A DNA stretch of 45,058 bases from Kribbella turkmenica (GTDB lineage Bacteria > Actinomycetota > Actinomycetes > Propionibacteriales > Kribbellaceae). The notes under the pieces were generated by a model that ran no database searches, was not told the DNA's origin, and saw nothing but the letters and a program-made list of their open reading frames with translations. The first letter of the stretch is position 1; each line of letters begins with the position of its first letter. The DNA lies in the NCBI RefSeq assembly GCF_004348725.1, contig NZ_SMKR01000041.1, forward strand, positions 1 to 45,058, in the 5' to 3' direction. Below are positions 2,451-34,706 of this stretch, one piece after another. The position numbers and the translations under genes were made by a program.

Positions 2451-2463
2451 GTAATCCTTTTCC
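2451..2463 (-). promoter_or_regulatory. Candidate LacI-family operator upstream of the esterase/pectinesterase gene
   Basis: On the minus strand the site reads GGAAAAGGATTAC, ending 51 nt before the GTG at 2399. It matches 12 of 13 bases of the oppositely oriented site at 2528-2540. The inner 12-mer has a G-n-AAA-GG-wTT-n-C layout, an imperfect palindrome like LacI-family sites with a shifted centre. The match is seen in the sequence; the operator role is inferred. Confidence 0.5.
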
Positions 2464-2527: not shown

Positions 2528-2540
2528 GGAAAAGGTTTAC
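2528..2540 (+). promoter_or_regulatory. Candidate LacI-family operator (autoregulation) overlapping a -10-like TTTACA
   Basis: The plus strand reads GGAAAAGGTTTAC, an inverted near-copy of 2451-2463. The pseudo-palindrome GAAAAG/GTTTAC agrees with its own reverse complement at 8 of 12 positions. It lies 48 nt before the GTG at 2589, the same distance as the mirror site has from its own gene. A TTTACAT string at its end could be a -10. An alternative reading is that AAAAGG is a ribosome binding site for the ATG at 2541. Confidence 0.5.
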
Positions 2541-2588
2541 ATGTTTGCGGTAGCAGCGAATCGCGCCGCGGCATGGTCCAATGTGCGC

Positions 2589-3608
2589 GTGAGAAAGTCG
2601 ACCAGGGATCGCGCCGGCCGGGCCACGATCCACGACGTGGCGCGACTCGCCGAGGTCTCGACCGCGACCGTGTCCCGGGTGCTCAGCGGCGGCAAGCCGG
2701 TCTCGGACCAGGTCGCCGAACGCGTCCGCGCGGCCGCCCAGGAGGTCGGCTACCGGCCGAACCCCGCGGCCCAGACCCTGCTGCGCGGCAGCAGCCGGAC
2801 GATCGGGGTGGTCGCGCCGGACCTGGGCAACCCGTACTTCGCCGAGATCCTCAAGGGCATCTCCGCCGAGGCCGCCACCGACGGCAACCACACGCTGGTC
2901 GCGGGAACGGACGAGGACCCGGAGCGAGAGTACCGCGCGGCGATCGAGCTGGCCCGGTGGGTCGACGGCCTGCTGCTGTGTGCGCCCCGGATGAGCACGC
3001 CGCGGCTGAAGGAGGTCGCCGCCGCCAGCCGGAAGCTCGTCCTGATCAACCGGGTGCTGCGCCATCCGTCGGTGGGAGCCGTGGTCGTCGACTACCACCA
3101 CGGTGTCCGGTTGCTGTGTGAGCATCTCGGGTCCCTCGGGCACAAGCGGATCGTCTACCTCGAAGGTCCGCCGCAGGCCTGGTCCGACCAGCAACGCCAG
3201 CGCGGGTTCCGGACCGCGGAGGCCGCCGGCCGGACGATCATCCGCGTGCCCTGCGGCTCGGCGCTCCGTGACGGCTTCAACGCGGTCGACGAGGCCCTCG
3301 GCCACCGCCCGACCGCACTGATCGCCTTCAACGACCACGTGGCCGTCGGGGTCCTCAGTCGCCTACGCGAGCTGGGCGTGTCCGTCCCCGACGACCTCTC
3401 GGTGGCCGGCGTCGACGACGCACCCATGAGTGCACACACCGACCCCGGTCTGACGACGTACGCCGTCTCCACGGTCGAGCTGGGCCGTCAGGCTTGGCAG
3501 CACTTCAACCCGACGGCCCCGGCCAACACCACACATCTCACCGGCGAACTGGTGATCCGGGGGTCCACGGCCCGTCCTCCGCGTCGCCGGCGTACCGCTC
3601 AGGCCTGA
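2589..3608 (+). CDS. LacI-family transcriptional regulator
   Basis: This is a sugar-responsive DNA-binding repressor. The N-terminal helix-turn-helix and hinge read TIHDVARLAEVSTATVSRVL, followed by the periplasmic-binding-like core beginning SRTIGVVAPDLGNPYFAEIL and the late block PDDLSVAGVDDAPMSAHTDP. Three in-frame starts are possible: ATG 2541, GTG 2583 and GTG 2589. I prefer 2583/2589 because codons between 2541 and 2583 (TTT, GTA, GCA, AAT) are unlike the rest, the family normally has a short lead before TIHDVA, and the operator then sits at the same distance as on the divergent side. The gene is single, divergent from the pectinesterase gene and convergent with the GH78 gene, whose stop codon region it overlaps by 10 bp. 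The effector is probably an oligo- or monosaccharide from pectin; that is inference. Confidence 0.93.
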   Translation: MRKSTRDRAGRATIHDVARLAEVSTATVSRVLSGGKPVSDQVAERVRAAAQEVGYRPNPAAQTLLRGSSRTIGVVAPDLGNPYFAEILKGISAEAATDGNHTLVAGTDEDPEREYRAAIELARWVDGLLLCAPRMSTPRLKEVAAASRKLVLINRVLRHPSVGAVVVDYHHGVRLLCEHLGSLGHKRIVYLEGPPQAWSDQQRQRGFRTAEAAGRTIIRVPCGSALRDGFNAVDEALGHRPTALIAFNDHVAVGVLSRLRELGVSVPDDLSVAGVDDAPMSAHTDPGLTTYAVSTVELGRQAWQHFNPTAPANTTHLTGELVIRGSTARPPRRRRTAQA

Positions 3609-8022: not shown

Positions 8023-8025
8023 GAG

Positions 8026-8058
8026 GAAAACCTTTGCCCCTGGAGTCGGCGATGTCAA
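8026..8058 (-). promoter_or_regulatory. Promoter with consensus -35 and embedded candidate LacI operator
   Basis: On the minus strand a perfect TTGACA (8058-8053) is followed after 17 bp by AAAGGT (8035-8030), which has the A2 and T6 of a -10 element. The operator-like GCAAAGGTTTTC (8037-8026) covers that -10. A transcript start would fall at about 8023, next to the ATG at 8022, so the mRNA may be nearly leaderless. Repressor binding here would block the -10 directly. Promoter and operator roles are inferred from sequence only. Confidence 0.5.
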
Positions 8059-8143
8059 CGCTCCATCCACAGGCTGGCCGATCGGCCTTGTTTTCTTGAC
8101 GTCTGCAGGCGGAGACTTGCGGGACTCGATGGTGGGAGGACTC

Positions 8144-18678: not shown

Positions 18679-20183
18679 GTGAGGCCCGCGGCGGCCTGAG
18701 CCTTGATGTAGTTCGGGATGTCGACCTGCTCGGCCACGTGCAGCGACGACGCCACGTCCATGCCGTCGATCAGCACGTGCTGGCGGAACACCTTGTACAG
18801 CGGGATGTCCCAGTACTCGGTGTTCTGGTAGTTCGTCACCACCGCGTTGTCACCCCAGTACACGCCCGACGTGTCGATCCCCTGCAGCTCCGGCAACGCC
18901 GTACCGAACGCGTTCACCACGGTGTCGGTCGGGAGCACCGCCTTCACGCCGTACGACGAGAGCCGGGTCTGGATCTCCTCCGACACCAGGTACTTGACGA
19001 TGCCGAGCGCGGCCTCCTTGTGCGCGGACTGCGGCGGGATGAAGGCGGCCCGCGTGTTCGGCTGGTAGATCGCGGTCGAGCCGCGCGACAGCACCGGCAT
19101 CGAGGTGACGCCGATCTTCACGCTCTTGGCCCACTCGGTGTAGTCCTCGACGTCGTCCTGCTCGATGTACAGGTCGTTCAGGGCATAGGCGTTCAGCTTC
19201 GACAGCGTGTGCACCGCCATCGCCACGTGGCCGGGGAAACTCATGTCGCCCTTGAAGAAGTCGTCCACGGTGGTGAACGTGTTGCCCGGCAGCATCAGGA
19301 ACCGGTACATGTTGTCGGCGACCCGCTTCCACTCCACCGACGTCAGGTTGACCTTGACGTCCTCCGGCGCGGGCTGCTCGCTGGCGCCCGGGACGAACGG
19401 GTACAGGCCCAACTGGTTCAGCGCCAGGTAGTTGTCCGGGTGCTGCATGAAGCCCTTGTAGTGGTCGATCCCGTCGTTGCGGGTCAACGCCCGCGCGGTC
19501 TTGTAGATGTCGTCGTACGTCGACCCGACCCGCGGGTACCGGACCCGGAATCTGTCGAAGATCAGCTTGTTGTAGAGCAGCACGTGCTCGTCGATGAACA
19601 CCGGGACGCCGTACAGGCCGCCGTCGGAGCGGGACTTGACCTGCTCGACTGTTCCCGGGTTGAGCGCGGACAGGTCGATCCCGGCCTGCTGGACCATCGC
19701 GGTCATGTCGGTGACCCAGCCGCGCGGCTCCAGGTCTCGGTCGATCCGGGTCCGCGGGTCCTCGAGGATCAGGTCGGGCACCCGGGTCGTCCTGGCGATG
19801 TCCTCGTACCGGATCGGGTAGTCCCAGGTGGCGTACTTGATCCTGACGTTCGGGAACTTCGCCCGGATCGCGTCGCCGAAGACGGTGTCGAAGTACCGGG
19901 TCGCCTCCCGGCCCTCGTCGTCGCCGCCGAGCTCGAACGGCTTGAAGTTCGCGGCGAAGATGAACAGCTCGTCGTCGTCCACCGAGAACGGCTTGTTGTA
20001 CCGGTTCGGGATCTCGACGGTGCCGGCCGCGGACCGGGCACCCGCGCGCGGGACCGCCGAGGTGGAGCTGGTGGCCGCCGCGGCGGCCGTCCCCGGCAAC
20101 GCACCGCCGAGGGCGGCCAGGCCGCCGATGAGGGCGCTGTTCCGGACGAAGCCGCGACGCGACATTCCTTTGCTGTCGGACAT
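18672..20183 (-). CDS. Extracellular solute-binding protein, sugar (family 1) type, Tat-exported
   Basis: It should capture an oligosaccharide at the cell surface. The N-terminus SRRGFVRNSALIGG is a Tat signal with an AAAAA cleavage region, and there is no lipobox cysteine. The mature 503-residue precursor has family-1 features: PDLILEDPRTRIDRD, GGLYGVPVFIDEHVLLYNK, STYDDIYKTARALT and AAFIPPQSAHKEAALGIVKYLV. Sugar SBPs of this family normally pair with CUT1 permeases, yet no such permease is in the window. Its neighbours are Dpp-type transporter genes with their own SBP at 24374-26359. The ATG at 20183 follows GAAAGG. A 29-bp gap separates it from the ATPase gene. It may serve a permease encoded elsewhere or have been recruited to the local importer. 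Confidence 0.9.
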   Translation of the reverse strand: MSDSKGMSRRGFVRNSALIGGLAALGGALPGTAAAAATSSTSAVPRAGARSAAGTVEIPNRYNKPFSVDDDELFIFAANFKPFELGGDDEGREATRYFDTVFGDAIRAKFPNVRIKYATWDYPIRYEDIARTTRVPDLILEDPRTRIDRDLEPRGWVTDMTAMVQQAGIDLSALNPGTVEQVKSRSDGGLYGVPVFIDEHVLLYNKLIFDRFRVRYPRVGSTYDDIYKTARALTRNDGIDHYKGFMQHPDNYLALNQLGLYPFVPGASEQPAPEDVKVNLTSVEWKRVADNMYRFLMLPGNTFTTVDDFFKGDMSFPGHVAMAVHTLSKLNAYALNDLYIEQDDVEDYTEWAKSVKIGVTSMPVLSRGSTAIYQPNTRAAFIPPQSAHKEAALGIVKYLVSEEIQTRLSSYGVKAVLPTDTVVNAFGTALPELQGIDTSGVYWGDNAVVTNYQNTEYWDIPLYKVFRQHVLIDGMDVASSLHVAEQVDIPNYIKAQAAAGLTW

Positions 20184-20212
20184 GGTTGACCTTTCGTGAG
20201 GGGCGGGCGGTG

Positions 20213-21220
20213 TCAGGCCGTCAGGGCCGGAGCGACACCTTTCAGGTCGAGCTGCTCGGCGAAGTGACAGGCGACCCGGCGCCCGCCCACCTCGCGCAGC
20301 TGAGGTACTTCGGTGCGGCACCGCGCCTCGGCGTAGCCGCAGCGCGGGCTGAACGGGCAGCCGGGCGGGACCTTGGACGGGTCCGCGATCTCACCGCGCA
20401 GCATGATCCGCGACCGCTTGCCGCGCGACGCCGGATCGGGATCGGGAACGGCGCTCAGCAGCGCCTCGGTGTACGGGTGCAACGGCTTGGAGTACAGGTC
20501 CTCGGTCGAACCGCTCTCCACCAGCTTGCCGACGTACATCACCGCGACGTCGTCGGCGAGGTGCTCGACGATGCCGAGGTCGTGGGAGACGAACAGGTAG
20601 GTGAGCCCGGACTCCTCCTGCAGATCCTTCAGCAGGTTGAGGATCTGCGCCCGGACGGACACGTCGAGCGCGCTGACCGCCTCGTCCGCGACCACCAGTC
20701 GCGGATCGGTCGCCAGTGCCCGGGCGATCACGACCCGCTGGCGCTCACCGCCGCTGAAGGCGTGTGGATAGCGATGCGCGTACTCCGCCCGCAGTCCGAC
20801 CCGCTTCAGCAGCGCGGCGACCTTCTCGTCGATCTCCGCGCGGGAGCCACGCTCCTGCACCCGCAGCGGCTCGGCGATGATGTCGCGCAAGGTCTTGCGC
20901 GGGTCCAGCGACGCGTGCGGGTCCTGGAAGATCAGCCGGACCTCGGCGCGGTAGGGCTTCAGCTCCTTCTCGGACAGCTTCGCCAGGTCCACACCGTCGT
21001 AGAGGATGCTGCCCGCGGTCGGCTCGTACGCGCGGACGATGCAGCGGCCGAGGGTCGTCTTGCCGCAGCCCGACTCCCCCACCAGCCCGAGGGTCCGGCC
21101 CGCCTTGATCGACAGGTCGACACCGTCGACCGCCTTCACCACCCCGCGATGCCGGCCGAAGAAGCCGCCGTGCAACGGGAAGTGCATGGTCAGGCCCCTG
21201 GTGGTCAGCAGGTCGTTCAT
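20213..21220 (-). CDS. ABC importer ATP-binding protein, DppF/OppF type
   Basis: This is one of two cytoplasmic ATPases that drive the importer. It has Walker A GESGCGKTT, Q-loop LIFQDPHASLDPR, signature FSGGERQRVVIARAL, Walker B LVVADEAVSALD (the usual DEPVS is DEAVS) and the H-loop FVSHDL. The C-terminal oligopeptide-transporter domain carries GCPFSPRCGYAEARC, with the cysteines that bind a 4Fe-4S cluster in this subfamily. The 335 residues are normal. The ATG at 21220 overlaps the stop of the partner ATPase gene (ATGA). In this locus the transporter should import pectin oligosaccharides rather than peptides. Confidence 0.95.
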   Translation of the reverse strand: MNDLLTTRGLTMHFPLHGGFFGRHRGVVKAVDGVDLSIKAGRTLGLVGESGCGKTTLGRCIVRAYEPTAGSILYDGVDLAKLSEKELKPYRAEVRLIFQDPHASLDPRKTLRDIIAEPLRVQERGSRAEIDEKVAALLKRVGLRAEYAHRYPHAFSGGERQRVVIARALATDPRLVVADEAVSALDVSVRAQILNLLKDLQEESGLTYLFVSHDLGIVEHLADDVAVMYVGKLVESGSTEDLYSKPLHPYTEALLSAVPDPDPASRGKRSRIMLRGEIADPSKVPPGCPFSPRCGYAEARCRTEVPQLREVGGRRVACHFAEQLDLKGVAPALTA

Positions 21221-22218
21221 CGATTCTCCTCGCCGTACAGGAGACAGGCGACGTCGGTGTCGTCGGCCCGCACCCGGGTCGGCACGGTCAGGTCGCACTT
21301 CCCGGCCATGAACGCGTCACACCGCGGGTGGAACCGGCAGCCGGACGGACGTTCGTACGGTGGCGGCACGGTCCCGCGAACGGCGGCCAGCCGGGCCTGA
21401 CCGCGTTGCCCGAGCCGGGGCACCGACCGGACCAGCGCCTGGCTGTACGGGTGCTTGGGAGCACTCAGGACCGACGTGGCCGGACCGTGCTCGACCACCT
21501 CGCCGAGGTACATCACGGCCACCTCGTCGGCCACCTGTGCGGCCACCCCGAGGTCGTGGGTGATCAGCATGATCGCCATGCCGAGCTCCTGCTGGAGATC
21601 CTGCAGCAGGTCCAGGATCTGCGCCTGGGTGGTGACGTCGAGCGCCGTCGTCGGCTCGTCCGCGATCAGCAACCGCGGCCGGCACGACAGTGCCATCGCG
21701 ATCATCGCGCGTTGCCGCATGCCACCGCTGAGCTCGAACGGGTACGAGTCGATCCGGCGCTTCGGGTCCGGGATGCCGACCCGGCCGAGCATCTCGATCG
21801 CCCGCTCGCGTGCCGCCACCTTGCCGATCTCGTCGTGCAGCCGGATCGCCTCGACGATCTGGTTGCCGATCGTGTGCACCAGGCTGAGCGAGGCCATCGG
21901 CTCCTGGAACACCATCGCGATGTCCGACCAGCGCACCTCGCGCAGGCGCTTGTCCTTCGCCGCCAGCAGGTCCAGCGGGTCGTCCGACGGCTCGTCGCCG
22001 TACAGCAGGATCTGGCCGCCGACGATCCGGGCCGGACGTTCGACCAGGCGCAGGATCGAGCGAGCGGTGACGCTCTTGCCGCAGCCGGACTCGCCGACCA
22101 CGGCCAGCGTCCGGCCCCGCGGCACGGTCAGGCTGACCCCGTCGACGGCCTTGACCACACCGTCCTCGAGCTCGAAATGCGTTTGGAGATCACGGACTTC
22201 CAGCAAAGGCTGAGCCAT
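21217..22218 (-). CDS. ABC importer ATP-binding protein, DppD/OppD type
   Basis: Partner ATPase of the importer, 333 residues. It shows Walker A GESGCGKSV, Q-loop MVFQEPMASLSLVHTIG, signature LSGGMRQRAMIAMAL, Walker B LLIADEPTTALD and H-loop LITHDLG. The C-terminal cluster motif CRFHPRCDAFMAGKC is present. The stop overlaps the DppF-type start by 4 bp, and 10 bp separate it from the permease gene upstream, so the complex subunits are made together. Confidence 0.96.
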   Translation of the reverse strand: MAQPLLEVRDLQTHFELEDGVVKAVDGVSLTVPRGRTLAVVGESGCGKSVTARSILRLVERPARIVGGQILLYGDEPSDDPLDLLAAKDKRLREVRWSDIAMVFQEPMASLSLVHTIGNQIVEAIRLHDEIGKVAARERAIEMLGRVGIPDPKRRIDSYPFELSGGMRQRAMIAMALSCRPRLLIADEPTTALDVTTQAQILDLLQDLQQELGMAIMLITHDLGVAAQVADEVAVMYLGEVVEHGPATSVLSAPKHPYSQALVRSVPRLGQRGQARLAAVRGTVPPPYERPSGCRFHPRCDAFMAGKCDLTVPTRVRADDTDVACLLYGEENR

Positions 22219-22228
22219 CAGGGTGCTC

Positions 22229-23368
22229 CTACTTGTAGGGGTCCGCGGCGTCGCGGAGGCCGTCGCCGACGAAGTTCATGGCCAGTACGACGACCACGAC
22301 CGCGAGTCCCGGCGTCAGCAGCCAGGGGGCGGTGGCGACCGCACGGATGTTCTGCGCGCCCTCGAGCAGCACACCCCAGCTGACGGCCGGCGCCTGCAGC
22401 CCGAGGCCGAGGAAGCTCAGGCTGGTCTCGCCGAGGATCATCCGCGGGACCGCCATCGACACCGACGCGATGATGTGGCTGGCGAACGACGGCACCATGT
22501 GACCGACGATGATCCCGCGCTGACCGACCCCGTCCAGCCGGGCGGCCATCACGAAGTCCTCCTCGCGCAGGCTGAGGAACCGCCCGCGGACGTCGCGGGC
22601 CAGCCCGGTCCAGCCGATCAGCGACAGGATCACGGTGATCGCGAAGTATCTGGTCAGCGGCCCCCAGCTGTTCGGCAGGGCCGCCGACAACGCCATCCAC
22701 AGCGGCAGCGTCGGGATCGACATGATGAACTCGATGACGCGCTGGATCGCGTTGTCGACCGGGCCGCCGAAGTACCCGGAGATGCCGCCGATCAGGATGC
22801 CGAGCACGAAGCTGGCGGCCACGCCGACCAGGCCGATCGAGAGTGACACCTTGGCGCCGTGAATCAGCCGGGACAGCAGGTCGCGGCCGGACTGGTCGGC
22901 GCCGAGCAGGAAGAACGGCTCGCCCTTGGTGGTCGGGCCGATCAGGTGGATGTCGGACGGGATCAGCCCGAGCACCTTGTACTCGTCACCGCGGACGAAC
23001 AGGCCGACGTCGACGATCTTGCTCCGGTCGACGGTGAAGGTCTGCTCGAACGTCTCCTGGCTGCGGGTGGACGAGTACCCGTAGACGAACAGGCCGTGCT
23101 CGGTGGACAGGTGCACCCGCTGGGGCGGCGCGTACGGCAGCGACGTGTGCGCGGAGTCGCTCGCGGCCGGGGCGAAGAACCCGGAGAAGACCGCGACGAA
23201 GTAGATCGGGACGAGGACGACCAGCCCGATCAGCGCGAGCCTGTGCCTGCGGAACTGCCGCCACATCAGCCGCCACTGCGGCAGCGCGCCGTGGTCCCGC
23301 AGGCTCTTCACCACCTCGGGCGCGGCCTGCGGCGGCGGCGCGGGCTGTTCCTGGATTGTCTGGACCAT
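22229..23368 (-). CDS. ABC importer permease, DppC/OppC type
   Basis: Inner-membrane permease of 379 residues. The first membrane helix is RLALIGLVVLVPIYFVAVFSG. A long external loop follows (~70-160, including LFVYGYSSTRSQETFEQTF), as in OppC-like proteins. Five more helices make up the BPD_transp_1 domain, with the EAA-type loop VMAARLDGVGQRGIIVGHMVP that contacts the ATPases and the late motif LSFLGLGLQAPAVSWGVLL. It is the second permease of the importer; 6 bp separate it from the DppB-type gene. Confidence 0.95.
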   Translation of the reverse strand: MVQTIQEQPAPPPQAAPEVVKSLRDHGALPQWRLMWRQFRRHRLALIGLVVLVPIYFVAVFSGFFAPAASDSAHTSLPYAPPQRVHLSTEHGLFVYGYSSTRSQETFEQTFTVDRSKIVDVGLFVRGDEYKVLGLIPSDIHLIGPTTKGEPFFLLGADQSGRDLLSRLIHGAKVSLSIGLVGVAASFVLGILIGGISGYFGGPVDNAIQRVIEFIMSIPTLPLWMALSAALPNSWGPLTRYFAITVILSLIGWTGLARDVRGRFLSLREEDFVMAARLDGVGQRGIIVGHMVPSFASHIIASVSMAVPRMILGETSLSFLGLGLQAPAVSWGVLLEGAQNIRAVATAPWLLTPGLAVVVVVLAMNFVGDGLRDAADPYK

Positions 23369-23374
23369 CGGGCG

Positions 23375-24373
23375 CTATCCCTTCGACAGCCGGTGACGGA
23401 TCCGCGGGTCCCACCAGGCCAGCGCGAGGTCGCTGAGCATCGTGCCGATCACTGTCAGCGCGCTGAGGATGAGGACGAAGCTGCCGACGAGGTACATGTC
23501 CTGGCTCCTCACCGCGCCGAGCAGCAGTGGGCCACTGGTCGGCAGGCTCATCACGACCGACACGATCGTCTCGCCGCTGATCAGCCCGGGCAGCAACCAG
23601 CCGACCGTGCTGAAGAACGGGCTGAGCGACATCCGCACCGGGTACTTGAGCAGCAGCTTCCATTCCGGCAACCCCTTCGCCCGGGCGGTCGCGACGTACG
23701 GCCTGTGCAGCTCGTCGAGCAGGTTCGCGCGGGTGATCCGGATCAGGCCGGCGGTGCCGGCCACGCCGACCACGACGATCGGCACCCACAGGTGCGAGAT
23801 CAGGTCGAGCAGCTTGCCCAGGTTCCAGGCGGCGTCGGCGTACTCGGGTGAGAACAGTCCGCCGACGCTCTGGCCGAAGTACCGGAACCCGATCCACATC
23901 ATCACCAGCGCGAGCATGAACTCCGGCACGGCCATCCCGATGAAGCCGAGGAAGGACGCGACGTAGTCGCCGGGCGAGTACTGCCGCAGCGCGCTGTAGA
24001 TGCCGATCGGGAAGGCGATCGACCAGACGAACAGCAGGCTGCCGATCGACAGCAGGATCGAGAGCATCACCCGGTTGCCGATCAGGCTGGCGACGGACTG
24101 GTTCCAGGCGAACGACTGGCCGAGGTCGCCGTGCAGGACCACCCCGGAGATCCAGGTCCAGTACTGCACCAGAAACGGCTTGTCCAGGCCGTAGTGCCGT
24201 TTCAGCTCGGCGATCTGCGAGTCCGGGATGTCCTGGCCGCGGGCCTCGGCGTTCGCGATCACCGTGGTGGTGTAGTCGCCCGGCGGCAGCTTGATGACGA
24301 CGAAGGTGACGAACGAGATCGCCGCCAGCGTGATCGCCATCCACAGCAGCCGCCGGGCCAGGAAGCGCAGCAT
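23375..24373 (-). CDS. ABC importer permease, DppB/OppB type
   Basis: Inner-membrane permease of 332 residues with the N-terminal start FLARRLLWMAITLAAISFVT typical of DppB, then RHYGLDKPFLVQYWTWISG and five further helices. The EAA loop reads YVATARAKGLPEWKLLLKYP. Its ATG at 24373 directly abuts the TAG of the solute-binding protein gene (no spacer), so the two are likely coupled. Together with DppC and the two ATPases it forms a complete importer. Confidence 0.95.
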   Translation of the reverse strand: MLRFLARRLLWMAITLAAISFVTFVVIKLPPGDYTTTVIANAEARGQDIPDSQIAELKRHYGLDKPFLVQYWTWISGVVLHGDLGQSFAWNQSVASLIGNRVMLSILLSIGSLLFVWSIAFPIGIYSALRQYSPGDYVASFLGFIGMAVPEFMLALVMMWIGFRYFGQSVGGLFSPEYADAAWNLGKLLDLISHLWVPIVVVGVAGTAGLIRITRANLLDELHRPYVATARAKGLPEWKLLLKYPVRMSLSPFFSTVGWLLPGLISGETIVSVVMSLPTSGPLLLGAVRSQDMYLVGSFVLILSALTVIGTMLSDLALAWWDPRIRHRLSKG

Positions 24374-26359
24374 CTACTGTCCGATCGCGAACTGTTCGGG
24401 ATGGACGATGCCCGGGGCAACCGCCTCGATCATCGTGTCCGGCACGTTGTGGAAGTCGTTCTTCACGATGCCGTAGGTGTTCGGGACGGTGCTGATGCCG
24501 ATGTAGTAGAACTGGTCGGCCGCGATCTGCAGGATCTGCTTGCCCAGGTCCAGCGTCTTCGCCGGGTCCGGCTCCTGCCGGCCCTGGGTGAACAGCTCGA
24601 GCTGCTTCTTCACCTCGGCCGGCGGCTCGACACCTTCCTCACCCTTGGACTGGTACCACTGCGCCCAGCCGATGCCGTACCGCGCGCTGCCGTCGTTGGT
24701 CGGCACCCAGTAGTGGTCGCCGCCGGTGCCGGTCGGCAGCACGAACGTGCCACCGGTCCAGGTGCCGGCGTCGTGGTCGTTGGCCCTGACCCGCTCCTTG
24801 GCGAGGTCCTCGCTCACCGCCTGGGTCCGCAGCTCGACGCCGACCGCGCGCCAGCGCTTCTTCACGAACTCGATCGCCTCGACATGGTCCGGGAACGACT
24901 CGCTCACCAGCACGGTGACCGACACCGGCCGGCCGTCCGCGCCCAGCCGGCGGCCGTCGGCCGCCTTCTTCAGCCCGGCCTTGTCCAGGTGCTCGTTCGC
25001 CTTGGCCTCGTCGAACTCCAGGTACTGCGTGGCCAGCTGCTCGTTGTAGTACGGCGAGTCCTTCGGCGGAGCGCAGTTCCACGGCTCGCCCTGGCCGGCG
25101 TACACCGCGTCGATGATCTCCTTGCGGTTGATCGCGTAGGACAGGCCGATCCGGAAGTCCTTGTTCGCGAACAGCGCCCGCTTGACCGGGTTCTTGTGGG
25201 TCTGGTTGATGCCGATGATCATCGTGTTCGTCAGCTGGGTCGGCACCTCGAAGATCCGGTAGCCGCCCTTCTCCCGGTTCTGCGCGACCACCGGCTTGTT
25301 CTGCGCGGTACCGAAGTTGCGGTACTGCATGCCGAACTCGCCGTTCATCACCTTGAGCAGCTCGACCTGGGGGTCCTGGACCACCTCGACGCGGCAGGCG
25401 TCGATGTACGGCAGCTGCCGGCCGGCGTCGTCGATTTTCCAGTAGTACGGGTTGCGGGACAGAGTGACCGCGGAGCCCTTGCCCAGCGGCGTGGTCACCT
25501 TCCAGGGCGCCAGGGTCGGCTGCTCCGGGTTGGTCCACGGATTCTGCTTCTGCGCGAACAGGTCGACCCAGCTGCCGACTCCGGCCTTCTTCGCCAGCGC
25601 GTTCGCGTTCTTGTTGTATTTCAGGTGGAACTGCTGGAAGTAGTGCTTCGGCAGCAACATCCCGTAGGCACCCTCGCGGAGGAAGATCGCGTCGGCGATC
25701 TGGCCCAGCAGCGACGGCTGCGGTGCGGTGTAGGTGAGCTTCACCGTCCGCTCGTCGACCTTGTCCATCTGCACCAGCTTGCCGGTGTCGGGCGAAAGGA
25801 AGGCGTCGTAGACCCCGTCCGGGTGCAGGCCGGGGTCGCACTGCACCTCGAGGACCGTGAACATCAGGTCGTCCGCGGTGCACGGCTTGCCGTCGGACCA
25901 CTTCAGCCCTTCGCGGAGGGTGAAGGTGAACACCTTGCTGTCGGCATCGACCGTGTACTCGGCGACGTTCGCTTCCATCTCGTCGTACCCGGGTTTGCCG
26001 GTCTTGTCCGGCTTCCAGCGCACCAGCGGCTCGTAGTGCATCGCGTACCACAGCCACTGAGTGTCCTCCTGGGTCAGCATCGCCGACCGCCAGGTGCCGC
26101 CGTACATGGTCTTGCCGGCCAGCGGCTTGATCACCGGCGGGTTCTTCGGCAGCCGCTGGTCCAGCGGCGGCAGCGTGCCCTTGTCCACCAGCGCCTTGAG
26201 CATCGGCGACTCCAACTGGTCCGCCGTCGCGGCCTGGGCACCGGACCCGGCCGGCTTGGTGTCGAAGAAGCTGCACCCCGGCACAGTGGCGGCCACCAGG
26301 ACTCCGAGTCCGCCTTGCAGCACCCGTCGCCGGTCGACCTTGCGTACGTCTCCAGACAT
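24374..26359 (-). CDS. Solute-binding lipoprotein, family 5 (Dpp/Opp type), Tat and lipobox
   Basis: Substrate receptor of the importer. The N-terminus DRRRVLQGGLGVLVAATVPG is a Tat-like signal ending in a VPGC lipobox (Cys ~29), so it is membrane-anchored. The 661-residue length is longer than peptide-binding DppA and matches family-5 proteins that bind plant oligosaccharides. Family motifs include EGLKWSDGKPCTADDLMFT, KDFRIGLSYAINRKEIID and YYWKIDDAGRQLPYIDACR. The start at 26359 follows GGGAGG. A much longer in-frame extension is open upstream, but it is only the shadow of the pectate lyase gene. It lies 2 bp after the lyase gene. Confidence 0.94.
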   Translation of the reverse strand: MSGDVRKVDRRRVLQGGLGVLVAATVPGCSFFDTKPAGSGAQAATADQLESPMLKALVDKGTLPPLDQRLPKNPPVIKPLAGKTMYGGTWRSAMLTQEDTQWLWYAMHYEPLVRWKPDKTGKPGYDEMEANVAEYTVDADSKVFTFTLREGLKWSDGKPCTADDLMFTVLEVQCDPGLHPDGVYDAFLSPDTGKLVQMDKVDERTVKLTYTAPQPSLLGQIADAIFLREGAYGMLLPKHYFQQFHLKYNKNANALAKKAGVGSWVDLFAQKQNPWTNPEQPTLAPWKVTTPLGKGSAVTLSRNPYYWKIDDAGRQLPYIDACRVEVVQDPQVELLKVMNGEFGMQYRNFGTAQNKPVVAQNREKGGYRIFEVPTQLTNTMIIGINQTHKNPVKRALFANKDFRIGLSYAINRKEIIDAVYAGQGEPWNCAPPKDSPYYNEQLATQYLEFDEAKANEHLDKAGLKKAADGRRLGADGRPVSVTVLVSESFPDHVEAIEFVKKRWRAVGVELRTQAVSEDLAKERVRANDHDAGTWTGGTFVLPTGTGGDHYWVPTNDGSARYGIGWAQWYQSKGEEGVEPPAEVKKQLELFTQGRQEPDPAKTLDLGKQILQIAADQFYYIGISTVPNTYGIVKNDFHNVPDTMIEAVAPGIVHPEQFAIGQ

Positions 26360-26361
26360 CG

Positions 26362-28722
26362 TCACATTCCTCCCTGCTCGACCGTGATGTTGCTGAACTG
26401 CGCGGTCCCGTAGTCCACGAGGCCGTTGTCCTCCCTGCCCCCGTCGACCGCGAAGCCGATGTAGAAGGTCGGGCTCGGCATCGCGATCCGCTCGTAGCCG
26501 AACCGGTCCCACTTGACCTTGTCCGTCGAGATGAAGGCCTCGAACTCGACCTCCCGGGCGTGCGGGCGCTCGCGCCGGAGCAGCCGCAGCCAGTACTGCT
26601 GGGCCGGGTCGAGGTACTCGTCCTCGGTCCACGGCCACGGGCCGACACTCGGCGACGGCCCGTCGGTCTGGAACCGGATCGCCTGCGCCTTCATGCCACC
26701 GTCGTCGGTGACCCCGGCCACGCCACCGGCGTCGCCGACCGTGCCCGTGCCGCCGGCCACGCCGAACCCGATACCGCCGTACATGAACGGGGCGGCCGGG
26801 TCGAGACTGTCGCGGATCATCAGGCCGGCGGTGAGGCCGTTCGCGATCTTGCTGATGCTGTCGAGCCGGGCGGTGAGCTGGGCGACCGAGCCGGCACCGC
26901 CGACGCGGAGCTTGCGGTAGACGTAGTGGAAGTTGCTCGACCGGCCCAGGATCCGGCCGGACCCCTTGATCGTCAGGATCCCGCCGTCGAGGCTGCCCGA
27001 CCCCGGCACCGGCGGCCTGCCGACCGACGCCGAGGTCCAGCCCGGTGTGCCGGACTGCCGGTTGACGTGCACCGGCACCTGGGTCGACTGGGTCGCCGTG
27101 CCGTTCCGGTCGGTCGCCCGGGCGGTCAGCCAGTACGAGCCGTCGGCAACGTTCCTCCACTGGACCCGGTACGGCGCCCTGGTCGCCGTACCGATCAGCT
27201 GGTCCCCGGCGAAGAACTCGACGGTCGCCAGTTCGCCGCCCTTGTCGGGTGCGGCGTCGGCCTCGATCGTCACCGTGGCGGTCGTCCGCGCGGTGACGGT
27301 CTGGTTGTACTTCGGGCCGGTGATCCCCACGGCCGGGTTGCCGACCGGGTCGGGGACGATCGAGTTGAGGTAGTTCTCCAAGTAGGTGTAGCCGTTCGGA
27401 GCGATCTTCTGGGCGTCCGACGGGTCGTTCGGGTCGAGACCGTTGGCCTTCTCCCACCAGTCCGGGATGCCGTCGTGGTCGGAGTCGGCCGCGGCCTGGG
27501 TCGAGGTCAGCACCGGGAAGCCGCCGACCTCCTTCTGCGAGTTGATCAGCCGGCCGGTGCCGTGGCGGGCGTCGTTGACGATCCGCGCGTCGGCCGCGTC
27601 CCGCCGCGGCAGGATCGCCCCCGCTCCGCGCAGGACGGCGTCGTACGCCTTGGCCGCGGACTGGGTGTCGATCTCGTCCGCAAACGGCAGCGGCCGGGCG
27701 AGCTCGTTGATCCCGCCGATCGGGTAGCGGATGCCGCGGCGGTTGTGCGCGGTCACGTCCGGATGACCCTCGACCTGGTTGCCGGCCACGTGCCACTGGC
27801 CGCCGCGGTTCGCGCTCACGATGACCGGCGCGACTTCGGACAGGGTGCTCGGGCCGGGCTTGTAGTAGTTGCCGACGATGTTGATGCCGTTGGCCCACTC
27901 ACCGCCGTACACCGAGGTGTAACCGTGGTCGTAGATCACGTTGTTGCGGTGGTCGACCTCGAGGTTGATGTTCTCGGTGTAGCCGAACCGCGGCTGCCGG
28001 CCACCCTGGTGGGCGATCAGGTTGTGGTGGTAGCTGTTGCGCTCACCACCCCAGATGCCGCCGTACCCGTGCCGGTTCTTCGGGTGCGCCGACAGCGCGA
28101 GCCCCTCGGCGATGATGCACCACTGGATGGTGACGTCGAAGTTCCCGTACGGCGACAGGCACTCGTCGACCGCCCAGCTGAACGAGCAGTGGTCGATGAT
28201 CAGGTTGCGGATCTCCGGGCTGACCGAGCCGGGCACGTTGGTGTTGAACGCGTCGTCGGCGGCCGCGTTCCGGTCGCCGAGGCGGAACCGCAGGTACCGG
28301 ATGACGATGTCGTGCGCACCGCCCTTGATGCTGGTGCCGCGGCCGGACACGCAGATGCCGCCCCCGGGGGCGGTCTGGCCGGCGATCGTCAGGTTGTTGC
28401 CGGCGATCTCCAGGCCGCTGTCCAGCTCGATCGTGCCGGAGACCCGGAAGACCACGGTGCGGTCCGACCCGGAGACGGCGTCGCGGAGCGAGCCGGGGCC
28501 GGAGTCGGCGAGGGTCGTCACCTCGTAGACGGATCCGCCGCGGCCGCCCGTCGACCACTTGCCGGCGCCCTCGGCACCGGGGAAGGCCGGGAGCCGGTCC
28601 TCGGTGGTCCGGGTGCGCGCGGCCTGGGCGGGAACCGTGACGCCGAGGGTGGCGGCGGCTCCGACGGCGGCGGTGGTTCCGACGAACCCGCGACGGGTCC
28701 AGCCGGTGGATGCTTCGGTCAT
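26362..28722 (-). CDS. Tat-secreted pectate lyase (PL1) with Ig-like and C-terminal accessory domains
   Basis: It cleaves de-esterified homogalacturonan by beta-elimination outside the cell. The N-terminus TRRGFVGTTAAVGAAATLG with AQA cleavage site is a Tat signal. The PL1 beta-helix opens with FPGAEGAGKWSTGGRGGSVY and has LIIDHCSFSWAVDE and SYHHNLIAHQGGRQPRFG, which hold the calcium and catalytic-arginine positions. A calcium loop SDHDGIPDWWEKANGLDPND (~430) follows, then an Ig-like domain (~470-560). A C-terminal ~200-residue domain (MIRDSLDPAAPFMYGGIGFG, FEAFISTDKVKW) looks like a DUF1349/concanavalin-type carbohydrate-binding module. It is the first gene of the long minus-strand operon. 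The ATG at 28722 follows GCGAGG. Confidence 0.93.
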   Translation of the reverse strand: MTEASTGWTRRGFVGTTAAVGAAATLGVTVPAQAARTRTTEDRLPAFPGAEGAGKWSTGGRGGSVYEVTTLADSGPGSLRDAVSGSDRTVVFRVSGTIELDSGLEIAGNNLTIAGQTAPGGGICVSGRGTSIKGGAHDIVIRYLRFRLGDRNAAADDAFNTNVPGSVSPEIRNLIIDHCSFSWAVDECLSPYGNFDVTIQWCIIAEGLALSAHPKNRHGYGGIWGGERNSYHHNLIAHQGGRQPRFGYTENINLEVDHRNNVIYDHGYTSVYGGEWANGINIVGNYYKPGPSTLSEVAPVIVSANRGGQWHVAGNQVEGHPDVTAHNRRGIRYPIGGINELARPLPFADEIDTQSAAKAYDAVLRGAGAILPRRDAADARIVNDARHGTGRLINSQKEVGGFPVLTSTQAAADSDHDGIPDWWEKANGLDPNDPSDAQKIAPNGYTYLENYLNSIVPDPVGNPAVGITGPKYNQTVTARTTATVTIEADAAPDKGGELATVEFFAGDQLIGTATRAPYRVQWRNVADGSYWLTARATDRNGTATQSTQVPVHVNRQSGTPGWTSASVGRPPVPGSGSLDGGILTIKGSGRILGRSSNFHYVYRKLRVGGAGSVAQLTARLDSISKIANGLTAGLMIRDSLDPAAPFMYGGIGFGVAGGTGTVGDAGGVAGVTDDGGMKAQAIRFQTDGPSPSVGPWPWTEDEYLDPAQQYWLRLLRRERPHAREVEFEAFISTDKVKWDRFGYERIAMPSPTFYIGFAVDGGREDNGLVDYGTAQFSNITVEQGGM

Positions 28723-28858
28723 CGTCCATGCCTCGCTTTCGGCAGGGGGCGGCTGCTGCGCCGGCCAGATTTGAATATCTAGTCAGCTTCGAATGGAACG
28801 ACGGCCTCATGGTCACGGAGGTTACGAGCCGATGTCAAGAGCGTGACACCCGGTTTCC

Positions 28859-28871
28859 GCAATCGTTTGCA
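28859..28871 (+). promoter_or_regulatory. Candidate LacI-family operator, copy 1 of 2
   Basis: GCAATCGTTTGCA is repeated exactly 32 bp downstream. The core GCAATC/GTTTGC matches its reverse complement at 10 of 12 positions and has the central CG typical of LacI-family operators. It aligns with the sites at 2451, 2528 and 8026. Confidence 0.65.
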
Positions 28872-28890
28872 GTCTGTGCTTTCGTCGGCA

Positions 28891-28903
28891 GCAATCGTTT
28901 GCA
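28891..28903 (+). promoter_or_regulatory. Candidate LacI-family operator, copy 2 of 2
   Basis: Exact second copy of GCAATCGTTTGCA. The 32-bp spacing is about three helical turns, so two dimers would sit on the same face of the DNA and could cooperate. Confidence 0.65.
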
Positions 28904-28947
28904 CTCAACTCTTGCCGGGTGCTCGCGGGCAATGGTTACCTTCACCC

Positions 28948-30777
28948 ATGCCCCTTCGAGCACAGCGACAGATCGCGGCCCGGCGCCCACTGCGGCTCGG
29001 CGCAGCGACCATCACCGGCGGCTTCTGGCACGACCGCCGGGAGACGAACCGGACCTCGACCATCCCGGCAGCGGCGCGCCGGCTGGAGGAGGCCGGCACC
29101 TTGCGGAACCTGCGGCGCGCGGCCGGCCATGAGCCGGCCGGCGACGGGTTCGCCGGGAAGCTGTTCGCCGACACCGACGTCTACAAGTGGCTCGAGGCCG
29201 TCGCCTGGGAGCAGGCCCGGTCGGCGTCGGCCGAGCTCGCCGAGTGGCAGAAGACCACCAACGCGTTGGTGGAAGCCGCCCAGGAGCCGGACGGCTACCT
29301 CAACAGCTACGTCCGGCTGGTGCTCGGCGGGCAGCGGTTCGGCGACCTGGAGAAGGGCCACGAGCTGTACTGCGCCGGCCATCTCCTGCAGGCCGCGGTC
29401 GCGCAGTCGCGCGCGACCGGGGACCACACGCTGCTGGCGGTCGCGACCCGGTTCGCCGACCTGCTCTGCAAGACCTTCGGCCCCGGCCGGACCGAGGGCG
29501 TCGACGGTCATCCGCTGATCGAGATGGCGCTGGTCGAGCTGTACCGGGAGACGGGGACGTCGGCGTACCTCGAGCTGGCGTCGTACTTCGTGGAGGCGCG
29601 CGGGCACGGGCTGCTGGAACCGCCGGGTCATCACGGGCCGGCGTACTTCCAGGACCACCTGCCGGTGCGGGACGTCCGCACGCTGACCGGTCATGCGGTG
29701 CGGGCCCTGTACCTCGCCGCGGGCGCCACCGACGTCGCGGTCGAGACCGGAGACCAGGAGCTGCTGGACGCCCTGCGGTCGAGTTGGCAGACGATGGTCG
29801 AGAGCCAGACCTATCTCACCGGCGGAGTCGGATCACGCTGGTACGGCGAGGCGTTCGGCGACCCGTTCGAGCTGCCGCCGGACGCGGCGTACTGCGAGAC
29901 CTGCGCGGCGATCGCGAGCGTGCAGTGGAGCTGGCGACTGCTCCTCGCGACCGGCGAGAGCCAGTACGCCGATCTGATCGAGCGGACGCTGTACAACGCG
30001 GTGATCTCCGGTGTCTCGCTGACCGGTCGCGAGTTCTTCTACGTGAACACGCTGAAGGTCCGCAACAACGCGTTCGCCGACGACCAGCGGTCCGCGGTGG
30101 CGGGCCGGCAACCGTGGTTCGGGACGGCGTGCTGCCCGCCGAACGTGATGCGCACGCTGTCGTCCCTCGACCAGCTGATCGCGACCTCGGACGACGACGG
30201 TGTGCAGGTGCACCTGTATGCGCCGGCCACGGTGGCCGCGGAACTGGCGGCCGGCTCGGTCGGCCTCGAGGTGGCGACGCGGTATCCGTGGCACGGGCGG
30301 GTGACGGTGACGGTCACCGGGTCGCCGGCGCAACCGTGGACGTTGGCGCTGCGGCTGCCCGCGTGGGCCGCGGGCTGCACGGCCTCGGTCAACGGGATCG
30401 CGCAGCCGACCGGGCCGGCCGGGCGGATGCTCGAGCTTCGACGGACCTGGACGGTCGGCGACGAGGTCGTGCTCGACCTGCCGGTGGGTGCACGCCGTAC
30501 GGTGCCGGACGACCGGATCGACTCGGTGCGCGGCTGTGTGGCGATCGAGTGCGGGCCGTTGGTGTACTGCTTCGAGCAGGTAGACCAGGACCTCGTACTG
30601 GATGCGGCTGCTGTCTCGGCCGGCGACCTGGTCGAGGTGGAGCGCCCTGACTTGCTGGGTGGGGTGACGACGGTCGAGGTGCCGGCGCGGGACGGCCGGA
30701 TGCTGACCGCGATCCCCTACTATGCATGGGCGAACCGCGAGGTCGGGCCGATGACTGTGTGGATCGATGCCCGCTGA
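28948..30777 (+). CDS. Beta-L-arabinofuranosidase, GH127 (DUF1680)
   Basis: Cytoplasmic enzyme of 609 residues that should release beta-L-arabinofuranose (or a related sugar) from pectin or glycoprotein side chains. The start region PLRLGAATITGGFWHDRRE is typical of DUF1680. The zinc-cysteine site is intact: YCETCAAIAS (E317, C319) and GTACCPPNVMRTLSSL (C395 as probable nucleophile, C396). The helical motifs KTTNALVEAAQEPDGYLNSY and HELYCAGHLLQAAVA are conserved family blocks. The ATG at 28948 is chosen because the longer open frame upstream runs through the operator sites; no clear ribosome binding site is seen, so the mRNA may be leaderless. The stop lies 1 bp from the convergent SorC gene. 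Confidence 0.93.
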   Translation: MPLRAQRQIAARRPLRLGAATITGGFWHDRRETNRTSTIPAAARRLEEAGTLRNLRRAAGHEPAGDGFAGKLFADTDVYKWLEAVAWEQARSASAELAEWQKTTNALVEAAQEPDGYLNSYVRLVLGGQRFGDLEKGHELYCAGHLLQAAVAQSRATGDHTLLAVATRFADLLCKTFGPGRTEGVDGHPLIEMALVELYRETGTSAYLELASYFVEARGHGLLEPPGHHGPAYFQDHLPVRDVRTLTGHAVRALYLAAGATDVAVETGDQELLDALRSSWQTMVESQTYLTGGVGSRWYGEAFGDPFELPPDAAYCETCAAIASVQWSWRLLLATGESQYADLIERTLYNAVISGVSLTGREFFYVNTLKVRNNAFADDQRSAVAGRQPWFGTACCPPNVMRTLSSLDQLIATSDDDGVQVHLYAPATVAAELAAGSVGLEVATRYPWHGRVTVTVTGSPAQPWTLALRLPAWAAGCTASVNGIAQPTGPAGRMLELRRTWTVGDEVVLDLPVGARRTVPDDRIDSVRGCVAIECGPLVYCFEQVDQDLVLDAAAVSAGDLVEVERPDLLGGVTTVEVPARDGRMLTAIPYYAWANREVGPMTVWIDAR

Positions 30778-30778
30778 C

Positions 30779-31792
30779 TCAGTCGCCGGCGAGCCGTTCG
30801 GCGACCGTCCGGTCGGTGATCAGTACGTCGACCCAGCGGCCGAGGAGAGCCGCCCGGATGGCGGCGTACTTGCGCATTCCGCCGGCGACACCGACGCTGC
30901 GCAGGTCGTCGCTGCGCACCTGTGCGGCGGACAGACCCAGCACTCGCTGGTCGATCTCGGACCGCACCGGTTTGCCGTTTCCGTCGAAGAACCGCAGGCA
31001 GATGTCCCCGACGGCACCCTGGTCGCGCAGCACCTTCTGGTCCTCGGCGGTCATCGCGTTGCCGCTCTCCCGGAGCAGCGGCGACGGCTCCAGACTGCCG
31101 ATGCCGACCAGCAGCAGCGTGAGCCTGGACCACGCGTCCATCACCTCGCTGACCACCGGATCCCTCACCAGTGTCCGCTTCGCGTTCACGCTGCCGACCA
31201 GACCGGGCACCGGCAGCAGGACGGGCTGGGCGCCGGTGAGGTCCGCGAGCCGGCCGATCAAGCGCGCGGCCCGGGCCTGCGCGGCCGGGTTGCCGACGCC
31301 GCCGAGCACCTGCACGACCTCCTCGGCGACCTGCGTCGGCCGCGGTGTCATCGACTCGACGGTCGCCAGCAGGGTGGAGCTCCAGGACGAGATCCCGATC
31401 CGGTCGCCGCCGGTCAGCGTGGTCTCCAGGTACACCGCGGCGGCCGCGCCCAGGGCCGGGATGATGTGTGCGTCGTCCTCGCCGCTGGCGTCGACCACGA
31501 TCACCTCGCGCAGCCCGTACCGCTGCTCGACCGCGCCTTCCAGCTCGGTGTGCACACCGCTCGGCGGGATGACCACGGTCCGGACGATGCCGGCCACCAC
31601 CGCCTGCTTGAGCAGCCGGGACACCCGCGGCTGCGAGATGTGCAGCTGCGCGGCGATCTGCGGCTGGCGGACGCCCTGCTCGTGGTAGAGCTTCGCGACC
31701 TTGGTGAGCAGCCGCAGGTGATCCGCCGACGGCTGCCGCCGGACACCCGGCCGCGGCCCCGGTCCAGCACTCGCCGTCGTCATGCCCAGCAT
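30779..31792 (-). CDS. SorC/DeoR-type sugar-binding transcriptional regulator
   Basis: It has an N-terminal helix-turn-helix (LRLLTKVAKLYHEQGVRQPQ, HISQPRVSRLLKQA) and a SorC sugar-binding domain (PF04198 type) with GDRIGISSWSSTLLATVE, VVQVLGGVGNPAAQ, LLVGIGSLEPSPLLRESG and VGVAGGMRKYAAIRAALLG. Such regulators bind phosphorylated sugars. ATG 31792 and ATG 31783 are both possible starts; neither has a ribosome binding site. Only 23 bp lie between 31792 and the divergent GH2 start, so the two promoters must overlap coding sequence, and control of the GH2 gene is likely. The 3' end is 1 bp from the GH127 stop. Confidence 0.92.
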   Translation of the reverse strand: MLGMTTASAGPGPRPGVRRQPSADHLRLLTKVAKLYHEQGVRQPQIAAQLHISQPRVSRLLKQAVVAGIVRTVVIPPSGVHTELEGAVEQRYGLREVIVVDASGEDDAHIIPALGAAAAVYLETTLTGGDRIGISSWSSTLLATVESMTPRPTQVAEEVVQVLGGVGNPAAQARAARLIGRLADLTGAQPVLLPVPGLVGSVNAKRTLVRDPVVSEVMDAWSRLTLLLVGIGSLEPSPLLRESGNAMTAEDQKVLRDQGAVGDICLRFFDGNGKPVRSEIDQRVLGLSAAQVRSDDLRSVGVAGGMRKYAAIRAALLGRWVDVLITDRTVAERLAGD

Positions 31793-31797
31793 GCTAA

Positions 31798-34706
<2,909 letters not shown>

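Follow-up and report, generated by a model that had tools for sequence, protein, structure and literature searches.

We propose that two identical sites lying 32 bp apart between a pectate-lyase-like gene and a GH127 gene of Kribbella turkmenica are two operators for LacI-A, a LacI-family regulator whose gene belongs to the same Kribbella pectin locus and lies about 36 kb away, and we give this reading a probability of about 0.85. In our model two LacI-A dimers would sit on one face of the helix, probably binding cooperatively, in the stretch that separates two divergent promoters, holding down GH127 on one side and a 17-kb lyase/importer operon on the other, and a pectin-derived sugar or oligosaccharide would release LacI-A from the pair. 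LacI-A would also act, at single sites identical to these, on a GH28 gene and on the GH42-GH2 genes beside its own gene and, in 11/15 genomes, on a GDSL esterase gene, and its paralogue LacI-B would control itself and further locus genes through a related operator with another centre. A likely regulator and its operators would thereby be assigned to a large pectin locus in Kribbella.

The proposed operator pair and LacI-A

The window, by which we mean the whole 45,058-nucleotide stretch of contig NZ_SMKR01000041.1 that was analysed, carries the following features at and around the pair.

28859..28870, plus strand: candidate operator A1, left of the pair, exact core GCAATCGTTTGC; core absent in G031 and G032
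28891..28902, plus strand: candidate operator A2, right of the pair, GCAATCGTTTGC; centre 32 bp from that of A1; core in 15/15 locus genomes
26362..28722, minus strand: pectate-lyase-like protein with signal sequence, first gene of the putative lyase operon; ATG at 28722
11747 (about)..28722, minus strand: 17-kb co-directional gene set, first gene the lyase
28948..30777, plus strand: GH127 glycosidase; Pfam PF07944, E 2e-96; ATG at 28948

The sequence GCAATCGTTTGCA occurs at 28859-28871 and 28891-28903 on the plus strand, 32 bp from start to start, and the window holds no third copy at two or fewer mismatches; the initial annotation's description of two identical 13-bp sites three helical turns apart is confirmed, and the sites are conserved. 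Its assignment of a LacI-like type is likewise supported, as the 12-bp core GCAATCGTTTGC is an even near-palindrome (GCAA-T-CG-T-TTGC, 10/12 positions self-complementary) with the central CG looked for in LacI-family operators, is rare in the genome and is kept in the relatives that bear the locus. The pair sits between the minus-strand lyase-like gene and the plus-strand GH127 gene, with A2 ending 45 bp before the GH127 ATG and A1 beginning 137 bp from the lyase ATG, and it is conserved upstream of the orthologous genes at the 30-140 bp before the start codon that are described as typical of LacI-family sites in the main text of PMC4052901.

Within the 7.45-Mb genome (351 contigs) the exact core GCAATCGTTTGC is present only four times, namely at the pair and at positions 5537 and 8167 of contig C218, and the motif is therefore not frequent at random; allowing one mismatch raises the count to 24 strand matches, the reversed control giving 2. 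The two further copies flank the gene for LacI-A (C218:7112-8125): at C218:5537 the core separates a divergent pair of GH28 genes, and at C218:8167 it separates LacI-A from the GH42-GH2 genes. As exact cores are confined to the pair and the flanks of this one gene, LacI-A is the most reasonable binder. The comparison with LacI paralogues elsewhere, which the initial annotation had in mind, thus yields a best candidate that is encoded outside the window and is flanked by the only two other exact cores. When the first 3 kb of the window and the first 4 kb of C218 were used as queries, the first bases of the two contigs mapped 100 bp apart and in opposite orientation in K. steppae. Window and C218 are thus very probably adjacent in the genome, which puts about 36 kb between the pair and LacI-A.

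LacI-A has an N-terminal LacI helix-turn-helix (PF00356, E 7.5e-12) followed by a periplasmic-binding-like ligand domain (PF13377, E 4.1e-28), the domain composition that defines the family, and its recognition helix is identical in 15/15 orthologues. At the hinge position where Leu is usual, Phe is found in 15/15 orthologues, and we take this residue to be the one that contacts the central CpG. Leu is the hinge 'lever' residue in the LacI family, although not a strict family requirement: among other LacI-family loci (100 aligned of 104) the position is Leu in 70, Met in 24, Val in 2, Thr in 2, Arg in 1 and Phe in 1. As residues other than Leu occur in the family, Phe marks LacI-A as a variant without excluding it from membership. 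The protein is 337 aa long, aligns to solved LacI chains only to chain residue 329 or so, and ends in an Arg-rich tail. E. coli LacI is a tetramer with a C-terminal tetramerisation helix; LacI-A is probably a dimer.

We compared 58 genomes, of which 37 belong to the genus Kribbella, that of K. turkmenica among them, and 21 to the rest of the order. The exact 13-mer GCAATCGTTTGCA is found in 15/58, all Kribbella, and at least 88% identical orthologues of LacI-A are found in exactly these 15; among the matches listed, the next that are near full length are 45-46% identical. Relatives of the GH127 protein (E at most 1e-100) are present in 44/58 genomes, and outside the locus the nearest of them is 57% identical, so that it is the locus, rather than the enzyme family, that the operator accompanies. 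Since both regulators, LacI-A and LacI-B, sit together with the sites in a single locus in these 15 genomes, co-occurrence alone cannot identify the binder. Of 68 exact 13-mer matches, 67 fall in the pectin locus. The exception, at G025:C13:53489, is a lone exact site of the same class (locus L150, about 2090), downstream of which the reading frames, judged by eye, are unlike pectin genes.

The motif is kept among relatives, both sites of the pair in 13/15 locus genomes and the A2 core in all 15, with A1 missing in G031 and G032. A2 is invariant in 12/12 columns of the 13 two-site rows, and the centre spacing is 32 bp in 13/13 of these genomes, one of the same-face spacings near 22 or 32 bp expected of tandem LacI sites. 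Mean pairwise identity is 0.53 in the spacer against 0.97 and 1.00 in the sites, in rows anchored ungapped, which understates flank identity. In G018 A1 is inverted at an unchanged centre-to-centre distance of 32 bp, as would be expected of a dimer site. Taking five positions in each of the 15 genomes, the core occupies 69/75 cells: 28/30 at the pair, 30/30 at the GH28 and GH42 sites and 11/15 at the GDSL esterase site, which is missing in four genomes including that of K. turkmenica itself (the count takes 11 GDSL loci, leaves out the extra G025:C13 match, and the GDSL assignment comes from a Pfam match in G013 only). The asymmetric centre ACGA/TCGT is present in 69/69 cores, although the search pattern left those two positions free, and the six empty cells hold no symmetric core variant within the patterns used.

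Further afield, LacI-A relatives in other genera (loci L187-L260, best 80 of 340) are 28-44% identical, and a 14-mer within one mismatch of TGCAAWCGWTTGCA occurs in 13/74 of these loci, which we do not count as support. In G055, of another family of the order, a truncated LacI-A relative (G055:C1:3789950-3790507, L263/L261) is 77% identical over residues 150-327, a match that lacks the DNA-binding part. A single 14-mer within three mismatches (it has 2) turns up in the 60 kb read there, next to another LacI gene; among 18 locus proteins only LacI-type matches and a 26% OppB-like match are found. The G055 data are consistent with the LacI-A reading without being an independent test of it.

Divergent genes, putative promoters and the sign of control

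The 17-kb set begins with the lyase-like gene, whose product carries a TAT signal, resembles the solved pectate lyase 9buj (E 7e-58) and matches NCBIfam PelZ (E 7e-44; 150 bits, cut-off 840). It is followed by a family-5 solute-binding protein, importer permease and ATPase genes (among them an OppB-like gene at 23375-24373 and an OppF-like gene at about 20213-21220, both named by eye), a second binding protein, a BNR protein, two DUF5060/DUF5605 proteins (one with an apiosidase domain), one protein of no assigned type and GH28. Gene order is similar in relative G013, where the BNR position is absent from the filtered ORF list. Terminator-like sites between 11000 and 30950 number 2, fewer than the shuffle mean of 4.8, and one of the two is on the minus strand (18398-18383). 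Of the divergent control of a 17-kb operon put forward by the initial annotation, the divergent control region and the co-directional minus-strand genes over 17 kb therefore stand, and the single operon is putative. The GH127 protein scores 419 bits against the solved GH127 arabinofuranosidase 4qjy and 392 bits against the NCBIfam aceric acid hydrolase (cut-off 950); the aceric acid hydrolase assignment was downgraded, being below cut-off and lower in score than that to 4qjy.

As a generic scan of 11000-30950 found no promoter, promoters were assigned by eye.

28912..28942, plus strand: putative GH127 promoter, TTGCCG 28912-28917, N19, TACCTT 28937-28942; by eye, from the sequence and the relatives' rows
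28809..28838, minus strand: putative lyase-operon promoter, TTGACA 28838-28833, N18, GACCAT 28814-28809; by eye

The putative -10 TACCTT stands five bases before the GH127 ATG at 28948 and differs in G008, G020 and G011, and the GH127 transcript would be leaderless. On the other side the TTGACA (TGTCAA on the plus strand) is present in all 15 printed rows of relatives, and its putative -10, GACCAT, is weak; a conserved minus-strand TAACCT was dropped as the lyase -10, being only 8 bp from TTGACA. A near-palindrome, TGAATATCTAGTCA, lies at 28772-28785 in the lyase-operon leader, and is also found in G031 and G032, whose printed rows are the ones that extend this far. It is a possible further operator; genome-wide it is not enriched (4 strand matches against 10 for the control).

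Both operators of the pair lie upstream of both putative -35 boxes, their centres at about -52 for GH127 and about -62 for the lyase operon, and for this reason we are less sure of repression here than at GH28 and GH42. Some LacI-family proteins bound upstream activate, CcpA being an example, and LacI-A might be an activator or dual regulator at the pair and a repressor at GH28 and GH42, a reading that differs from ours in sign only. These distances from the presumed starts speak for it, as does the helical phasing in the genomes that lack A1: the remaining site is 44 bp from TACGAT in G031 against 32 in G032, and 34 from TACCTT here, a difference of about one helical turn. The positions depend, however, on promoters assigned by eye, and where the same site occurs at GH28 and GH42 it overlaps or adjoins core promoter elements. 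At the minus-strand GH28 gene TTGACA-N17/18-(C/G)ACGAT is followed a few bases downstream by the operator in 15/15 rows, and at GH42 the operator edge itself supplies TTGCAC (13/15) or TTGCAT (2/15), with TAnnnT 17-18 bp beyond the hexamer and before the ATG in 14/15, the leader of G032 being longer. With the promoters again placed by eye, both look like repressor positions. We regard activation at the pair as unlikely, though deserving of attention, and repression by LacI-A as the probable sign of control.

A probable second operator class and competing binders

The window also encodes a LacI-family regulator of its own, LacI-B, with related elements around it.

2577..3608, plus strand: LacI-B, the window's own LacI-family regulator, start codon not settled; Pfam LacI, E 5.5e-17
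2451..2462, minus strand: candidate B-class operator GAAAAGGATTAC, upstream of LacI-B; kept in 14/15 genomes, one with centre GC
2529..2540, plus strand: candidate B-class operator GAAAAGGTTTAC, upstream of LacI-B (given as 2528 in the initial annotation); kept in 14/15 genomes
8026..8037, minus strand: candidate B-class operator GCAAAGGTTTTC, before the 6310-8070 gene; pattern match

LacI-A and LacI-B are paralogues, 41% identical, and LacI-B orthologues (E at most 1e-110) are found in the same 15/58 genomes. The initial annotation had aligned the core of the pair with the elements at 2451, 2528 and 8026 under one consensus, GMAAWSGWTTNC, and this does match five places in the window (2451, 2529, 8026, 28859 and 28891), with 7 strand matches against 0.06 expected, and 44 strand matches genome-wide against 2 for the reversed control. 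The consensus nevertheless merges two classes, as GAAAAGGATTAC, GAAAAGGTTTAC and GCAAAGGTTTTC have the outer bases of the pair sites (class A) and a different centre. At the 2529 element, the exact 15-mer GGGAAAAGGTTTACA occurs once each in 12/58 genomes, all with LacI-B.

The centres were compared by a scan of the 15 genomes in which the four central bases were left free. Two sites stand upstream of LacI-B in 14/15 genomes (none in G032), with centre CC/GG in 27/28 and GC in 1/28, and they are spaced by 78-80 bp in 5 genomes and by 68 bp in 9, distances about one helical turn apart. A further B-type site precedes the plus-strand GH28 gene in 15/15 genomes, its centre GG in 6 and GC in 9. A CG centre is found in 0/43 B-class matches against 28/28 in the pair region, where for one site per window it holds by construction, the class A windows having been placed on the CG-type core.

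These centres bear directly on the possibility that LacI-B binds the pair in addition to 2451, 2528 and 8026, as one repressor over 26 kb. All five window sites fit GMAAWSGWTTNC, and the two regulators are paralogues in the same genomes, yet the contrast in centres, even if partly by construction, and the arrangement of sites, with exact class A sites flanking LacI-A and two B sites just upstream of LacI-B, make this improbable. Where the initial annotation had left the choice between one repressor and two related ones for sites 26 kb apart, the second alternative is the one that survives, and we favour two paralogous repressors with two operator classes as the best reading. The A and B sites at the GH28 genes lie about 100 bp apart in all 15 genomes, and LacI-A is just downstream of the plus-strand GH28 gene, so that LacI-A may itself be under LacI-B. 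With paralogous repressors whose operators differ mainly at the centre, nature would provide a case in which to test how proteins of the LacI family keep their targets apart, a separation possibly linked here to the Phe hinge residue and the fixed asymmetric centre.

Another of the roughly 59 LacI-family proteins, for instance a global catabolite regulator, could be suggested as the binder of the pair instead. The genome contains 59 LacI-domain matches, 58 of them above cut-off, and several of the one-mismatch core sites are on contigs that carry other LacI genes, which makes cross-talk possible. The exact 13-mers, by contrast, are restricted to the pectin locus in 67/68 cases and are absent from the 43/58 genomes without it, unlike the pattern expected from a global regulator, and we hold this explanation to be highly improbable. 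That the pair is a chance or non-regulatory repeat is practically negligible: the sequence is short, in two copies, and at two or fewer mismatches window shuffles give a mean of 0.39 matches to GCAATCGTTTGCA and reach two in 5/100, so that the case against chance lies in exactness and conservation. Both matches are exact, and of the 15 genomes 13 retain the pair and all 15 retain A2, the spacing staying constant while the spacer has diverged; the reversed control has 0 matches in all 58 genomes.

Known systems and the likely substrate

The arrangement proposed for LacI-A is ordinary in kind and fits the known tandem LacI arrangement; it is the regulator that is newly proposed. According to the main text of PMC4052901, a central CG is found for 1173/1303 LacI-family regulators and tandem LacI-type sites precede 1118 operons, with intersite peaks at 13, 22 and 32 bp, of which the 22- and 32-bp peaks are read as cooperative dimers (Ravcheev et al. 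2014, PMC4052901). The pair resembles the tandem operators described there in its even palindrome with central CG, its two sites per intergenic region, its 32-bp spacing and its local sugar-utilisation regulator, and differs in that the candidate regulator gene is about 36 kb away. The same main text draws on 57 actinobacterial genomes of 344, calls the phylum under-represented, and contains no occurrence of Kribbella, pectin or rhamnogalacturonan. It also names the uronate regulators KdgR, UxuR, UxaR and ExuR; LacI-family control of uronate catabolism would be common to these as described there and to our locus, where the likely targets are instead depolymerases, glycosidases and an importer.

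PurR-type operators, also of the LacI family, have a core GCAAACGTTTGC that differs from the pair site at one position. They differ from the pair in that pectin enzymes and not purine genes are found here and in the asymmetric ACGA/TCGT centre of all 69 cores. A candidate PurR site, ATGCAAACGTTTGCTT, is printed in the text available of PMC3739930. A literature search with the operator letters returned, in the portions of the sources available, only work on H. influenzae competence and on PurR. Searches for Kribbella with pectin and LacI found no such regulon, those for Kribbella with rhamnogalacturonan returned only quorum-quenching enzyme work and no such regulon, and those for rhamnogalacturonan II (RG-II) with LacI and operon, or with Actinobacteria and apiosidase, found nothing on such a locus and nothing at all, respectively.

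The proteins of the locus, which include a GH78-type rhamnosidase, GH95, GH28, GH2 and GH42, suggest that it targets complex pectin. A RuBisCO-like protein (8830-10503) has NCBIfam OiaX as its closest match (406 bits, cut-off 700), which we assume to belong to the isoapionate pathway, and an apiosidase-domain protein (16178-17974; solved relative 4n0r) is presumably GH140; their presence in the same locus points to a possible pathway of apiose or RG-II use in an actinobacterium. GH141-type domain proteins are encoded in relative G013. In the light of RG-II enzymology the complex pectin is perhaps RG-II, and with its apiosidase-like protein, OiaX relative, GH78, GH95, GH127 and GH28 this may be a rhamnogalacturonan-II locus of an actinobacterium; the best NCBIfam matches, aceric acid hydrolase and OiaX, are both below cut-off. 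Were this true, it would mean regulated RG-II breakdown in a soil actinobacterium.

The interest of the system resides in the two-repressor architecture and the likely substrate, and a fuller version of the model, which we advance tentatively and at well short of even odds, would combine them. An RG-II locus in a soil actinobacterium would be run by two LacI repressors, paralogous and interlocked, that have distinct operator centres (CG against CC/GG or GC), LacI-A with its Phe hinge and strictly asymmetric operator possibly standing under LacI-B, and the cooperative pair would be the master switch of the uptake operon.

Three further proteins of the window deserve mention. The 686-aa operon protein at 12946-15006 is a candidate new enzyme: Pfam and NCBIfam give no match for it, and among solved structures there is only a marginal one (E 0.036). 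The 586-aa protein at 6310-8070, at the B-class site 8026, is marginally GH127-like, below cut-off, with no NCBIfam match and no solved relative at E 0.001. Finally, 30779-31864, between the GH127 and GH2 genes, encodes a regulator with a PF04198 sugar-binding domain, which we take to be SorC-type.
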